Origin: Bacillus salipaludis
GTDB taxonomy: Bacteria > Bacillota > Bacilli > Bacillales_B > DSM-18226
Direction: 5' to 3'
Assembly: GCF_004358205.1 (NCBI RefSeq)
Contig: NZ_SMYO01000018.1
Location: 7,638-71,637, forward strand
DNA length: 64,000 nucleotides
In this document: in pieces, positions 13,571-18,004 of the stretch
How the letters are laid out: every line of letters starts with the position of its first letter
How positions within the stretch are numbered: position 1 is the first letter of the stretch
The notes under the pieces: model-generated
Database searches by the model: none
What the model was told of the DNA's origin: nothing
The model's input: only the letters and a program-made list of their open reading frames with translations
Position numbers and translations under genes: made by a program

Positions 13571-13929
13571 CGTAATGAACTTCAGTAGATGGCTATGTTA
13601 AGGTCTTATCCCATTCCTCAATAGCAAAACTAAATCCAACACATTTAATCCCGCCTTAGACACGAACTCAAAACAATTATAAAATCATCGAAGGCATATG
13701 TATATTTTTAAAAGGCTGTTTTCGCAAGGATTGTTGTTTTTCGAACAGATTTAATAGTAAACTTTTGACCCTAAGGCATGCATTCGGACACGATTGCCCT
13801 TGGCTTCATCAAAGATATTCGAATGAGACCATTATTCAGACTCGATTACCTTGGATCTCATCATAGACTGTCCGAAAAAGCCCCTAAATGGATCATATTT
13901 TACCAAGAGCAACAAAGTTTGAAAAATTG

Positions 13930-13987
13930 GGGTCAGTCCCCGTGTGAGCTAACGTTCTACTCCACAAGGGGACTGACCCCTTGAACA
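13930..13987. repeat. GGGGACTGACCCC-type palindromic repeat, copy 2
   Basis: GGGGTCAGTCCCC at one end and GGGGACTGACCCC at the other, ending CTTGAACAC exactly like the copy at 9497-9560. The inner 25 bases differ more than the arms, which suggests selection or recent activity of the ends. Confidence 0.65.
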
Positions 13988-14251: not shown

Positions 14252-14743
14252 TCATATAAGCTTTTTGAATAAGACTTCCAGTTCCATTGATTTTTTTAAC
14301 GTATTGAAAATAGGGGAATTTTTAAGGGCACTGAAGCAAAAATCATCAAAATCATTGTCCTCAATTTCAACAAATAAAAAAACGGTTACAGTTATTTTTC
14401 TGATAAACGGTTCTTCATCATACCCTTTCACACCTACCAAGGATAGAGGGTTTTCCAGTGAAAGGTTCAAAACTCCTTCAATTTCTTCAATAATAGAGCC
14501 CCTTTTTTTCGACACCTCTAAGAGCGTCAAAATGATGCTGCTTAAAACGGATCCGGCGAAGTATTCGAGACTCGTGATTTCGTTGTATTCTGGATCAAAA
14601 CTCATTTGCTTTTCTATTTGAAAGCTCATTTGATTTGTAAAAACTTTTACCGATGAGAGATCATTTGACGTCCCCCTAAAGCTCATATCAAAAATCCTGG
14701 ATTCATATAATGTGTTTATTTCATCTTTTGACTGCTTATTCAT
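14252..14743 (-). CDS. OsmC-like protein lacking the catalytic cysteines
   Basis: The 163-residue protein has the OsmC/Ohr outline: an N-terminal beta region, then SLEYFAGSVLSSIILTLLEVSKKRG where OsmC proteins have the long helix with the peroxidatic Cys, and a C-terminal helix with NSPIFNTL where CPI with the resolving Cys is expected. Both positions carry other residues; the only Cys in this part is in DDFCFSAL. It is therefore unlikely to be a thiol peroxidase and may bind a small molecule. It starts with ATG after AAGGAG and overlaps the end of the MetE-like gene by eight bases, so it is the last gene of that cluster. Confidence 0.65.
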   Translation of the reverse strand: MNKQSKDEINTLYESRIFDMSFRGTSNDLSSVKVFTNQMSFQIEKQMSFDPEYNEITSLEYFAGSVLSSIILTLLEVSKKRGSIIEEIEGVLNLSLENPLSLVGVKGYDEEPFIRKITVTVFLFVEIEDNDFDDFCFSALKNSPIFNTLKKSMELEVLFKKLI

Positions 14744-15917
14744 ACTTACTCCTTAGTATTAAAGCCGCTCCTGTCAATGAGCGTATTTTAGCTGAGATAT
14801 TTTCATAGATGTTAACCGGACTATTGGCGAAGGTTGCAAAACCGCAGTCAGGATTTAGCCATATTCTTTCCTTTGGAAGATACGTCATTGCCTCTTCGAC
14901 TCTTGAAAGGATAGGATCCAATGTCTCCATTTCATCTGTACGCGGATTGATCACGCCTAAACCAAGGGTGGCATGCCCCCTAATTCTTGAATCAGCCAAT
15001 AACGAACTTAGTTCACCTGCCCGTGGTGTTGAGAATTCAAGTGTTAAAAGGTCCGGATTCACACTAGCAAATAACTCAAGCAGTGGAGTATATGGACCTG
15101 TCAATAATATGCTCTCATTCTTGCTCCAGTTGCCTCTGCAGACATGTAAAGAAGCAACCGTCTTTGTTCTATCTATATGACTCATAATCTTTCCAATTAA
15201 GGAACTGGCAAATTCAAGCTCCTCTTTAGGATCTTTTCTCTCAGAAAGAGCTGCACACATAAATGACCTCGGCTTTCCCTCTGTAAAAACAACCTCGGTC
15301 AGAACCGGTTCATCAAATTGAATTACATCAACCCCTATATTCAAAAGATGATCTATCTCTTCCTTCATGATCTTTATTACATCTTGCCCAAGTTCTTCCT
15401 TGCTGCCATAAACCTTACCAGAGAGATTAGGAAGCCACATCGATCTGGTTAGAAGATAGGGACCTGGCATTGTGATCTTAACGGGTTTGTTGGTGAACTT
15501 CTTCATCATCAAAAGCTCATTTGCGACAATATCGCCATTGTAGTTCAACTTACCAACACAAATAGCATTTTTAATGCTGACAGCCGGAACGTCAAGCGCG
15601 GTCAAAATATTCTCAAAAGCTTTTTTATCATCAATATAATCGAGCATTTCACTCATGTTCATCATTCTAACGCCGCTAATTTTATCGGAAACAAAGGACA
15701 CATAGTTATCCCGTCCGAGCTCTCCGCTTGTGATGATATCAATCCCTAAATCCTCCTGCAGCTTAATGATCTTTTGCGTTTCAATCTCAATAAGCTGGTT
15801 GAAGTCATTTGGTTCAATCGTTCCTTTTCTCATCATTCTGAGGGCTCTTAGAACCTCTTTTGACCTTGGCATGCTCCCAATTAAGGAAGCGGGAAATAGC
15901 GGTAATGGCCTATCCAT
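14736..15917 (-). CDS. Stand-alone MetE catalytic-core protein (cobalamin-independent methionine synthase-like methyltransferase)
   Basis: A single-domain member of the MetE C-terminal/UROD-like superfamily, about 393 residues, lacking the N-terminal half of true MetE. The zinc site is intact: His and Cys in SLHVCRGNW (about 258 and 260), Glu in TLEFSTPR (about 294) and Cys in NPDCGFAT (about 358). IQFDEPVLTE is the usual substrate-side Asp/Glu motif. The family includes YxjG/YxjH, the core-MetE methionine synthases and epoxyalkane:CoM transferase, so it probably activates a thiol for alkyl transfer. The start is ATG nine bases after GGGGG; an earlier ATG overlaps that site. It sits third in a cluster with a flavoprotein and a binding-protein homologue. 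Confidence 0.8.
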   Translation of the reverse strand: MDRPLPLFPASLIGSMPRSKEVLRALRMMRKGTIEPNDFNQLIEIETQKIIKLQEDLGIDIITSGELGRDNYVSFVSDKISGVRMMNMSEMLDYIDDKKAFENILTALDVPAVSIKNAICVGKLNYNGDIVANELLMMKKFTNKPVKITMPGPYLLTRSMWLPNLSGKVYGSKEELGQDVIKIMKEEIDHLLNIGVDVIQFDEPVLTEVVFTEGKPRSFMCAALSERKDPKEELEFASSLIGKIMSHIDRTKTVASLHVCRGNWSKNESILLTGPYTPLLELFASVNPDLLTLEFSTPRAGELSSLLADSRIRGHATLGLGVINPRTDEMETLDPILSRVEEAMTYLPKERIWLNPDCGFATFANSPVNIYENISAKIRSLTGAALILRSKYE

Positions 15918-15948
15918 GTGTTTCATCCCCCAAAATGGATGTAAATGG

Positions 15949-15990
15949 TTAAAAGAGAAGCAGCGAAAAAAAAACGCTCTTCTCTTTTAA
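15949..15990. promoter_or_regulatory. Strong hairpin between the binding-protein and MetE-like genes
   Basis: On the minus strand TTAAAAGAGAAGAGCG pairs with CGCTGCTTCTCTTTTAA (one bulge) around a loop of T residues. Because the T-run is in the loop rather than after the stem it looks like an mRNA processing or stabilising hairpin, or an attenuator, rather than a simple terminator. It may set different levels for the two halves of the cluster. Confidence 0.5.
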
Positions 15991-16037
15991 ATAAACAAGT
16001 TTAAAGTTTGTCTAGCAAAAATTCATTCACGAATTAC

Positions 16038-16853
16038 CTATATGAAGAACTTCAGATAGTCATTGGCTTCACGTAATTGCTGAAATCCTGTGATTCTGCC
16101 TTCAACCCATTCTTTCAAACCTTCCATATCCATCATCTTCCTATGAGCTTCATTGTTATAGTCCATTCTATGAAGCACCTTTTGCCATTCTATGAACCTA
16201 TCAGTTGAAAAAACAGGATGAGCTACGAAAATACAGTGGTCAAACAAAGCGGTTGTATCAATGCATACCAGTTGATTTTCATCAATTGCGCCATCCTTCT
16301 TCCAAGCTTCCCAGTTCAAATCTAGAGTAACAGAGGCGTCTACAGTTCCCTCCATCAACGCTTTAATAGCATCCAGCTCTCCACCTATATGGTCTCCATG
16401 TAGGCCTACGCCAATATCAAACCTTTTCTCAGTGTAGTCCGCTCCATACTCAAGTCCATTTTTATGCAAATGGTTAATTGGTATTAATCTTGCCTGAGGA
16501 GAGTCTATCGCTCCAAAGCCAATTGTCTTGCCCCTTAGCCCGGCTAGATTTGTGATCCCGCTGTCTTTTCTCACTATAAAACAGGTCTTTCTGTCTCTGT
16601 CCGTATCTCGCATTGAACCCATCTGGCATTTTCCATCGGTTCTCAAATAAGCGTCCAACCATGCAAGGGGCGAATTCCAGGCAATGTCTATTTCCCTGTT
16701 TAATAAACCGTCAACCTGTCCTTCGTAATCCTTATAGAAGATACATTCGATTTCAAGGCCTTCCTCTTTGAAAAAATCGGCGATGATCCCCCAGATAACG
16801 GTAACCCTCGGATCATAAATAACAGCCCCTACTTTTATTCTATCGTTATTCAA
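16038..16853 (-). CDS. PhnD/SsuA-type substrate-binding fold protein without signal peptide
   Basis: The protein has the two-lobed periplasmic-binding fold of the phosphonate/sulfonate/nitrate type: IKVGAVIYDPRVTVIWG at the N terminus, DIAWNSPLAWLDAY, CFIVRKDSGITNLAGLRGKTIGFG with the hinge, and VDASVTLDLNWEAW. There is no signal peptide or lipobox, and no ABC permease or ATPase adjoins, so it is probably cytosolic: a ligand sensor, an enzyme (as THI5/NMT1 is in thiamine synthesis) or a chaperone for a cluster intermediate. I prefer TTG seven bases after AAGGAG over the GTG that abuts this site. It begins 23 bases after the flavoprotein gene. Confidence 0.7.
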   Translation of the reverse strand: MNNDRIKVGAVIYDPRVTVIWGIIADFFKEEGLEIECIFYKDYEGQVDGLLNREIDIAWNSPLAWLDAYLRTDGKCQMGSMRDTDRDRKTCFIVRKDSGITNLAGLRGKTIGFGAIDSPQARLIPINHLHKNGLEYGADYTEKRFDIGVGLHGDHIGGELDAIKALMEGTVDASVTLDLNWEAWKKDGAIDENQLVCIDTTALFDHCIFVAHPVFSTDRFIEWQKVLHRMDYNNEAHRKMMDMEGLKEWVEGRITGFQQLREANDYLKFFI

Positions 16854-16876
16854 TGAGCTCACTCCTTATATTGTGG

Positions 16877-18004
16877 TTATGGAATCATCTGACCTGTTAA
16901 TGCTTTTCCAAGCCAAATAGCCAGAACGTCGGCACTTGGAGCCATAATTTGTCCGGCATATGCGTCTCTCAGAAGCCTTTCCGTAGGGAGAGATTTATTG
17001 TAAGCTTTCCCTCCACCCACTCTCATTGCAAGCCTTCCACATTCGATTGCAGCTTCTGAGGCCACGATTCTTGCCGAGAGAATCTTTGCAAGTGCATCAG
17101 CTTCACTGTTGGCACCCGCTCTAGCAGCGTCTAGAGTAAGTGCTCTAGCGGCTGCTGCAGTTTTATAAATATTTGCAATATGAATTTGAATTGTTTCAAT
17201 ATTAGCAAGGGTTGTCCCATCCGGATATTGTCTATCCACAGCATGGTTGCTGGCTATTTCAAACATATGCATGGCAGTACCGCTATAAACGGCTCCCAGC
17301 CCTGTGACGAAAAATGGAGCTACCACGTTGAATACCTGCTCTTCTCCTGAACCTTCTGCCCCAATGCGGAAAGATGAATCCAAAGTGACATTCTCAATGT
17401 GCATTGGACATGACGCATTACCTCTCAATCCAAAGCCATTCCATTTTGACAAGTCAAAGGATAGGCCTTTTGTTTCCAGAGGGAATACCCAATTGTTTAT
17501 TTTTCCTTCTTCAACAGATGGTGCAAGAACGAGATAGTAAGAAGCATATGTTCCAGATGTGACCATACTCTTTGTTCCGTTAAAAGTTGTGTTGTCCCCG
17601 TTAACCTCAGCAGTCATTTCCGGAATATAGAAGTGTGTTCCTGTTCCTAATTCGCTGTAGGCTAAAGCCATGAATTTCCCATTTTCTACAATGTCTGTGA
17701 AAATATTTTGCTTTAGTTCGTCACTTCCATGAGTTAGAATACACATCAATGCGACATTATGCATCATGTAACAAAGGGCTGTAGTTGAGCAGGTCTCTGC
17801 AAATGCCAGACAAGCCTGGGCATGCTCTTCAAGTCCTTTGCCAAATCCGCCATATTCTACAGGTATAACCAGTTTTAAAAAGCCGTTTTCACTTAGCTTC
17901 TTGAAGGACTCTTCAGGAAATTTCGACTCCTTGTCAGTCAATTCAGTGTAAGGCAGTATGTAGGACCTTGCAAAATCTTTGCCTTGTTGATAAATATTGT
18001 TCAT
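16877..18004 (-). CDS. Acyl-CoA dehydrogenase-like flavoprotein (possible monooxygenase/desulfurisation type)
   Basis: The 375-residue protein has the acyl-CoA dehydrogenase fold: an N-terminal helical domain (FPEESFKKLSENGFLKL, PVEYGGFG), a central beta domain (ALAYSELGTGTHFYIPEM, FNGTKSMVTSG) and a C-terminal helical domain ending RVGGGKAYNKSLPTERLLRDAYAG. The catalytic Glu position cannot be assigned with confidence, and DszC/SfnC-like flavin monooxygenases share this architecture. The start is ATG after GGAGGGTGAGG; an earlier in-frame start lacks a site. It is the first gene of a four-gene minus-strand cluster with a binding-protein homologue, a MetE core and an OsmC-like protein, which points to metabolism of an organosulfur or other methylated compound. 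This is inference. Confidence 0.75.
   Translation of the reverse strand: MNNIYQQGKDFARSYILPYTELTDKESKFPEESFKKLSENGFLKLVIPVEYGGFGKGLEEHAQACLAFAETCSTTALCYMMHNVALMCILTHGSDELKQNIFTDIVENGKFMALAYSELGTGTHFYIPEMTAEVNGDNTTFNGTKSMVTSGTYASYYLVLAPSVEEGKINNWVFPLETKGLSFDLSKWNGFGLRGNASCPMHIENVTLDSSFRIGAEGSGEEQVFNVVAPFFVTGLGAVYSGTAMHMFEIASNHAVDRQYPDGTTLANIETIQIHIANIYKTAAAARALTLDAARAGANSEADALAKILSARIVASEAAIECGRLAMRVGGGKAYNKSLPTERLLRDAYAGQIMAPSADVLAIWLGKALTGQMIP

Follow-up and report, generated by a model that had tools for sequence, protein, structure and literature searches.

What joins a flavoprotein, a binding-like protein, a methionine synthase core and an OsmC-like protein in one compact gene cluster, and what might they do together? 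The question is raised by four minus-strand open reading frames (ORFs) within positions 14252-18004 of a 64,000-nucleotide stretch of Bacillus salipaludis DNA (contig NZ_SMYO01000018.1; the whole stretch is hereafter called the window). These are the genes of a flavoprotein of the acyl-CoA-dehydrogenase fold (16877..18004, 375 aa), a binding-like protein of the PhnD/PtxB fold (SBP; 16038..16862, likely start 16853), a MetE core with a Meth_synt_2 domain and without the folate domain (14736..15926, 396 aa) and an OsmC-like protein (14252..14743, 163 aa). We find that they belong to a unit kept together across bacterial phyla, which is apparently undescribed and which probably does sulfur or methyl-group chemistry.

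The four genes form a conserved unit

An ORF check of the window recovered the close packing that the preliminary description of this DNA had read from it. The best start of the SBP gene is the TTG at 16853, which is preceded by AAGGAG (the alternative lies at 16862), and with this start the gap to the flavoprotein gene is 23 bases; the MetE core ORF has a second ATG at 15917, an alternative start, and overlaps the OsmC-like gene by 8 bases.

Loci for comparison were collected with an SBP profile scanned over one genome per species, which gave 169 matches, 156 of them confirmed, and the best 80 loci were kept, all of which contain the SBP by construction. Partners were identified by blastp with the window proteins, and the unit was scored where all four genes lay within 4.5 kb. 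This was the case in 71 of the 80 loci, spread over 12 named phyla, a conservation that excludes a chance neighbourhood and sustains the earlier proposal that the four families belong together. The 71 loci come from Bacillota (46), Pseudomonadota (5), Verrucomicrobiota and Planctomycetota (4 each), Actinomycetota (3) and Campylobacterota (2), the remainder being six further phyla with one locus each and one unplaced record. Nine loci were incomplete: to judge by contig ends and maps, L021, L024, L057, L062 and L077 are cut short, and in L046, L066, L079 and L080 one or two partners were absent from the fetched stretch. The Dehalococcoidia genome of L080 has a MetE-OsmC pair (L140) on a different contig from its OsmC-flavoprotein-SBP genes.

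The order flavoprotein-SBP-MetE-OsmC was found in 57 of the 71 loci, OsmC-flavoprotein-SBP-MetE in seven, OsmC-SBP-MetE-flavoprotein in four and flavoprotein-OsmC-SBP-MetE in two, with an inverted flavoprotein gene in the last one. Membership is thus kept where the order has changed, which is strong evidence for a joint function of the four genes. The MetE and OsmC genes overlap in 52 of 59 loci (median -8, with ORF starts set mechanically).

Occurrence of the unit is sparse and patchy. Samples from four phyla gave the SBP in 9 of 198 Actinomycetota, 4 of 249 Pseudomonadota, 1 of 299 Bacillota and 1 of 194 Verrucomicrobiota, and all four figures count the centre genome, which was chosen for having the SBP; none of the 298 other Bacillota sampled had it, and the family to which Finegoldia belongs had it in 24 of 130 genomes. 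Together with the 60-71% identity between the window SBP and those of other phyla, this patchiness suggests horizontal spread. Among the carriers are the anaerobes Finegoldia, Parvimonas, Anaerococcus and Synergistaceae.

Individual loci depart from the usual gene content. Flavoprotein genes stand in tandem in Finegoldia magna (three, L039:4572-7979) and Gemella sanguinis (two, L022:5553-7975), and in Companilactobacillus versmoldensis the MetE core is read as two ORFs in the cluster (L034:8826-10011) and as two ORFs again elsewhere (L141:848-2011), by either decay or assembly error.

The hairpin earlier noticed between the SBP and MetE genes (15951..15988, minus strand) is also present, at -29.6 kcal/mol and a z of -3.4, with none of 200 shuffles equally good. 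A similar hairpin occurs in 10 of the 14 other SBP-MetE gaps printed (out of 80 loci), all 10 of them from Bacillales, and the outer stem is nearly constant in sequence when these are aligned. This element may fix the proportion between the two halves of the cluster.

The flavoprotein-SBP pair occurs with other partners

Fourteen loci outside the MetE+OsmC group (three on actinobacterial plasmids, eight from the Actinomycetota sample and three from the Pseudomonadota sample) carry the flavoprotein and SBP genes side by side, in 14 of 14 cases, and within their stretches of 5.7-19 kb neither MetE nor OsmC was matched at E 1e-3. The pair is therefore a wider core than the four-gene unit. Phmmer found a TusA-like/diiron protein in seven of the 14 loci (L094, L095, L097-L100 and L106) and an Rv1681-like radical S-adenosylmethionine (SAM) protein in five (L081, L082, L096, L107 and L108), the latter exceeding the Rv1681 family cut-off in all but L081. 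No locus had both partners and 12 of the 14 had one, L083 and L093 having neither. The radical SAM genes of the Rv1681 family adjoin the pair (L107:8735-9847, L108:9070-10182, L082:8825-9823 and L096:7697-8695); in L107 and L108 they are convergent, so that co-transcription is not implied there. In the window itself, a scan of 13 distinct neighbouring products found no radical SAM protein.

The TusA-like/diiron proteins have 400-odd residues, with a TusA-like N-terminus fused to a ferritin-like part and repeated DEARH-type motifs (for example L097:335-1615). Pfam AurF matches the one in L106 with 30.6 bits (cut-off 29.6), and no Pfam model matches four others scanned. A TusA-like N-terminal domain, named by no library, was also seen in the radical SAM protein of L107. 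When the TusA-like regions of four diiron proteins and of this protein were compared with the TusA domains of two four-gene loci from Verrucomicrobia (L059 and L072), hhalign gave a probability of 98.4 and an E of 7.7e-15, from alignments of 5 and 4 sequences.

A quick SBP tree without bootstrap placed the MetE+OsmC loci on one side of a branch (Shimodaira-Hasegawa-like approximate likelihood ratio test, SH-aLRT, 95), with the radical SAM and diiron types outside; L095 was labelled 'other' in it and L099 left out, and both carry the TusA-like/diiron protein. The MetE+OsmC side also includes two flavoprotein-SBP loci that adjoin an NhaC-type transporter gene, with no MetE or OsmC alongside (L046:276-3762 and L079:5442-8816).

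That MetE and OsmC can be replaced by a radical SAM or a diiron protein suggests that one intermediate is finished by different chemistries. In its widest form, which we regard as doubtful, this idea would have a core of a flavoprotein lacking the catalytic glutamate and a cytosolic PhnD-fold SBP supply one undescribed metabolite, containing sulfur or a methyl group, to one of three interchangeable finishing modules: a MetE core plus OsmC, a radical SAM protein bearing a TusA-like domain, or a TusA-like/diiron protein. The first of these would amount to a fifth way of forming methionine independently of folate, one that needs neither oxygen nor a corrinoid partner.

Features of the four proteins

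The flavoprotein scores over the cut-off of four acyl-CoA-dehydrogenase Pfam models, and its nearest relatives in the PDB are short-chain acyl-CoA dehydrogenases. The catalytic glutamate is absent, the YEG position reading MAP (once MGP) in 21 of 21 aligned rows. The nearest NCBIfam model is that of Rv1679/FadE16 (247 bits, cut-off 600), followed by those of acryloyl-CoA reductase and 3-sulfinopropanoyl-CoA desulfinase. According to the accessible part of one account, members of the fold without this glutamate have altered mechanisms, and sulfinopropionyl-CoA desulfinase, one such enzyme, eliminates sulfite without redox change (PMC8360864). Electron transfer flavoprotein (ETF) alpha had no match in 18 of 38 carrier genomes surveyed and was matched in the other 20, several of the 38 being drafts and all being genomes other than the window's own.

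The SBP matches Pfam Phosphonate-bd (PF12974). Its AlphaFold model (predicted local distance difference test score 85.6) and the Foldseek and VIA-align matches support a periplasmic-binding-protein fold, shared with PtxB, HtxB, PhnD and ArrX/AioX and more weakly with THI5, a cytosolic enzyme of the PhnD/PtxB-type fold; the structure matches listed are 12-22% identical. The nearest NCBIfam model, Rv1680, gave 209 bits (cut-off 400). At most 16 residues precede the conserved G12 in 66 of 81 aligned rows; of the 15 mechanical ORFs with a longer N-terminus, 14 show a methionine immediately before the domain, and no signal peptide or lipoprotein anchor was apparent in the 81 rows, judged by eye without a signal-peptide program. 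These short N-termini agree with the preliminary placement of a PhnD-type fold inside the cell. At least 93% of the 81 rows conserve 67 positions, a degree of conservation that we judge atypical of transporter binding proteins, and none of the maps read shows an ABC permease or ATPase gene directly adjoining the SBP gene; 16 loci have ABC-ATPase-type ORFs at a greater distance (one member checked). A PhnD-like domain has been reported as a probable sensor of tetrathionate (PMC5408782).

In the MetE core, Pfam lists Meth_synt_2 (PF01717) only, and the folate domain PF08267 is not listed. The zinc residues H261, C263, E297 and C361 and the homocysteine residues S18, E69 and D205, identified from the list for core methionine synthases in the available part of PMC7857596, align with full MetE and YxjG/H-type rows. 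All seven are kept in 71 of 75 MetE-core rows, and the four exceptions are three partial ORFs and one row with Q for H. Nine NCBIfam models match, all below their cut-offs; on NF005085 (cut-off 313) the window protein reached 114.7 bits and six comparison rows 437-530. In a tree, 32 sampled cluster rows stood on one side of a branch with an SH-aLRT of 94, just below the 95 mark, against these six rows, five other rows and five full MetE proteins (MesA-D and epoxyalkane:coenzyme M transferases were not among the rows). Long branches were flagged, which leaves the exact placement unsure. A tight grouping with YxjG/YxjH, which would have spoken against the preliminary description, was thus not seen.

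The OsmC-like protein reaches 24 bits on Pfam OsmC, below the cut-off of 27.5, and its fold is supported by AlphaFold and Foldseek (best E 1.4e-06). It keeps R23 and E89, and it has no conserved cysteine, the preliminary description having noted the lack of a catalytic one: the best column holds one in 33 of 75 rows, and 16 rows are cysteine-free. We reject an OsmC/Ohr peroxidase, with its two catalytic cysteines, because of this lack.

A tentative function and its rivals

A conserved unit, the folds and residues of its proteins, the absence of an ETF-alpha match in many carriers and the exchange of partners are the observations from which we infer a substrate, a reaction order and direction, and a role for OsmC. 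Our preferred but tentative reading, one possibility among several, is that the four genes encode one cytosolic pathway of alkyl transfer to a zinc-bound amino-acid thiol, independent of oxygen and ETF. The SBP would bind a small anionic, probably sulfur-containing metabolite and pass it to the flavoprotein, which would activate or split it without oxygen and without ETF; the alkyl group, most likely methyl, would then move to an amino-acid thiol on the MetE-core zinc, probably turning homocysteine into methionine, with a putative role as carrier or docking protein for the OsmC-like protein. Such a MetE core would represent a further folate-independent core synthase family with partners of its own, as MesX is for MesD. 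In favour of this reading are the conserved unit, the seven zinc and homocysteine residues and separate tree group of the MetE core, the missing glutamate of the flavoprotein and the carriers with no ETF-alpha match, the fold of the SBP, the sulfur-related genes in L059 and L072 and the precedent of MesD-MesX. The pathway put forward in the preliminary description, for demethylation, C-S cleavage or alkyl transfer, is likewise a candidate. Since the unit occurs in anaerobes, its MetE+OsmC type is unlikely to depend on an oxygenase.

Several results weigh against alkyl transfer, and against methionine as its product. YxjG/H-type proteins have the seven MetE residues too, so methionine synthesis is not singled out by them. 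Seven of the 38 carrier genomes have no strong MetE N-domain or PF02574 protein, and in these seven SahH was found in none, LuxS in two and a strong PF01053 enzyme in three; for three of the seven (Fenollaria, L036; Anaerococcus, L037; Lagierella, L043) no homocysteine source is thus evident. We therefore do not treat methionine autotrophy as proof, since such a source is not consistently present in the carriers that lack MetE and PF02574. Most other carriers have MetE or PF02574, so the cassette is often not the sole methionine route. No riboswitch, and hence no SAM riboswitch, lies directly before the cluster in the 16 of 80 loci scanned at gathering thresholds. No extra gene or transporter is constant among the 80 loci, and no substrate is thereby indicated, and a TusA profile run over their ORFs found no case beyond L059 and L072.

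Nearly as likely as alkyl transfer, and likewise rather unlikely when taken by itself, is a desulfurising route, in which the flavoprotein would be a desulfinase-like C-S lyase, sulfur would travel via TusA/OsmC-type partners and the MetE core would handle the thiol product or regenerate the carrier. L059 and L072 have genes for TusA, DsrE and a TusA-OsmC fusion inside the unit (and L059 one for a PCC-domain protein), TusA-like domains occur in the radical SAM and diiron partners, such a partner being present in 12 of 14 flavoprotein-SBP loci, and the desulfinase model is among the nearest to the flavoprotein; DoxX/DoxD-type genes also neighbour the loci L061, L081 and L083 (Pfam DoxD 23.8 bits in L061; DoxX 19.5 in L083, under the cut-off). 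The TusA, DsrE and TusA-OsmC genes and the TusA-like domains lend indirect support to the sulfur link proposed in the preliminary description. However, the OsmC-like protein lacks a conserved cysteine and in most of the fused TusA-like domains the customary cysteine position is missing (by eye), so that neither resembles a simple persulfide carrier; TusA-type genes stand in 2 of the 80 four-gene-type loci; and the homocysteine residues of the MetE core, which alkyl transfer to homocysteine would use, are left unexplained. Dealkylation or detoxification of an organoarsenic, organoselenium or phosphonate compound, its alkyl group ending on a thiol, is improbable. The fold neighbours of the SBP do include the arsenate-/arsenite-binding ArrX/AioX, a TIGR04282 protein (in NCBI an arsenosugar biosynthesis glycosyltransferase; 136 of 134 bits) adjoins the unit in L061, and L081 has a DUF2064 gene, with selD about 6 kb away; but neighbours of this kind were not seen to recur as families in the 80 loci, and the same was true of ars and phn genes, at which no model search had been aimed.

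The preliminary description had likened the flavoprotein to the DszC/SfnC type, which oxidises sulfur compounds. An oxygen-dependent DszC/SfnC-like monooxygenase, oxidising sulfur or nitrogen, would fit the missing glutamate and the 18 genomes with no ETF-alpha match. We now disfavour it and consider it very unlikely, given scores far below the cut-offs (36.8 of 850 bits for DszC, 79.3 of 430.9 for SfnB), structural relatives that are short-chain acyl-CoA dehydrogenases, and carriers that include the anaerobes named above. Least probable, to the point of being hardly credible, is an ordinary YxjG/YxjH-type methionine gene that adjoins unrelated genes by chance: the Pfam match to Meth_synt_2 would fit, and that type shares the HxCRGN motif and all seven key residues, yet the unit is kept in 12 phyla, and the MetE core forms a separate tree group and stays under every NCBIfam cut-off.

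Neighbouring genes and RNA elements

In the window, an inverted repeat, GGGGTCAGTCCCC...GGGGACTGACCCC, lies 3' of the OsmC-like gene at 13929-13980 and by eye resembles a dispersed palindromic repeat, and at 21198-23056 genes for an ABM-domain monooxygenase and a nitroreductase adjoin a divergent TetR-type regulator. The window has no credible riboswitch (one match, at E 0.41). Downstream of OsmC, a SAM riboswitch lies about 1.8 kb away in L047 and a thiamine pyrophosphate riboswitch about 0.8 kb away in L055.

The most recurrent extra genes among the 80 loci are of the LysR type (7 loci, two members checked) and for an NhaC-type transporter (5, three checked); a BCCT transporter gene follows the unit in two Haemophilus loci and lies at a greater distance from it in L015. 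In L061 (1475-6579), genes for an MTAP-like phosphorylase, a methyltransferase, a radical SAM/SPASM protein, a glycosyltransferase, the TIGR04282 protein and the DoxD match precede all four genes, and parts of this neighbourhood recur in L081:1199-10844 and L107:1530-9847, so that nucleoside phosphorylase-like, radical SAM/SPASM, glycosyltransferase and TIGR04282-/DUF2064-type genes appear in varying combinations in different phyla.

Comparison with known systems

A search of one library of open-access papers found no description of the four-gene set, which leaves standing the earlier statement that no such system had been described, save that the Rv1679, Rv1680 and Rv1681 families have been named, though they are uncharacterised. 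Here is, then, a self-contained unit that is kept in 12 phyla, its carriers including anaerobes that live at human body sites, and that has no assigned function in the literature found. If its MetE core does make methionine, the unit would supply a new donor system for a central metabolic step; if the route instead desulfurises, it would add to anaerobic C-S chemistry.

Among the closest known systems is MesD-MesX, a core methionine synthase with a dedicated partner, the pair requiring oxygen (PMC7857596, as far as its accessible text goes). With this pair and the other Mes core synthases, as that text presents them, the window shares a MetE core without the folate domain, the zinc and homocysteine residues and a dedicated partner gene. 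It differs in a MetE core that is under all NCBIfam cut-offs, in its other partners and in its occurrence in anaerobes, the comparison being made without MesA-D sequences. YxjG/YxjH-type proteins have the same MetE core, motif and seven residues, whereas the window family stands on a separate branch. PhnD/PtxB binding proteins and THI5 share the fold of the SBP, which differs from the binding proteins in having no apparent export signal and, in the maps read, no directly adjoining ABC genes. 3-Sulfinopropanoyl-CoA desulfinase has the fold of the flavoprotein and is also without the glutamate, but the window protein reaches 121 of 600 bits on its model.

In the Rv1679 (FadE16)/Rv1680/Rv1681 families a flavoprotein likewise stands beside an SBP, and on an M. 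vanbaalenii plasmid the flavoprotein-SBP pair is found with an Rv1681-family protein; the part of the literature available to us names Rv1680 as a putative phosphonate transporter component (PMC8562490). These systems have a radical SAM partner where the window has MetE and OsmC, and the window proteins fall under the Rv1679 and Rv1680 cut-offs. The flavoprotein-SBP core is nonetheless related to these uncharacterised mycobacterial families, and so solving one member would inform many.

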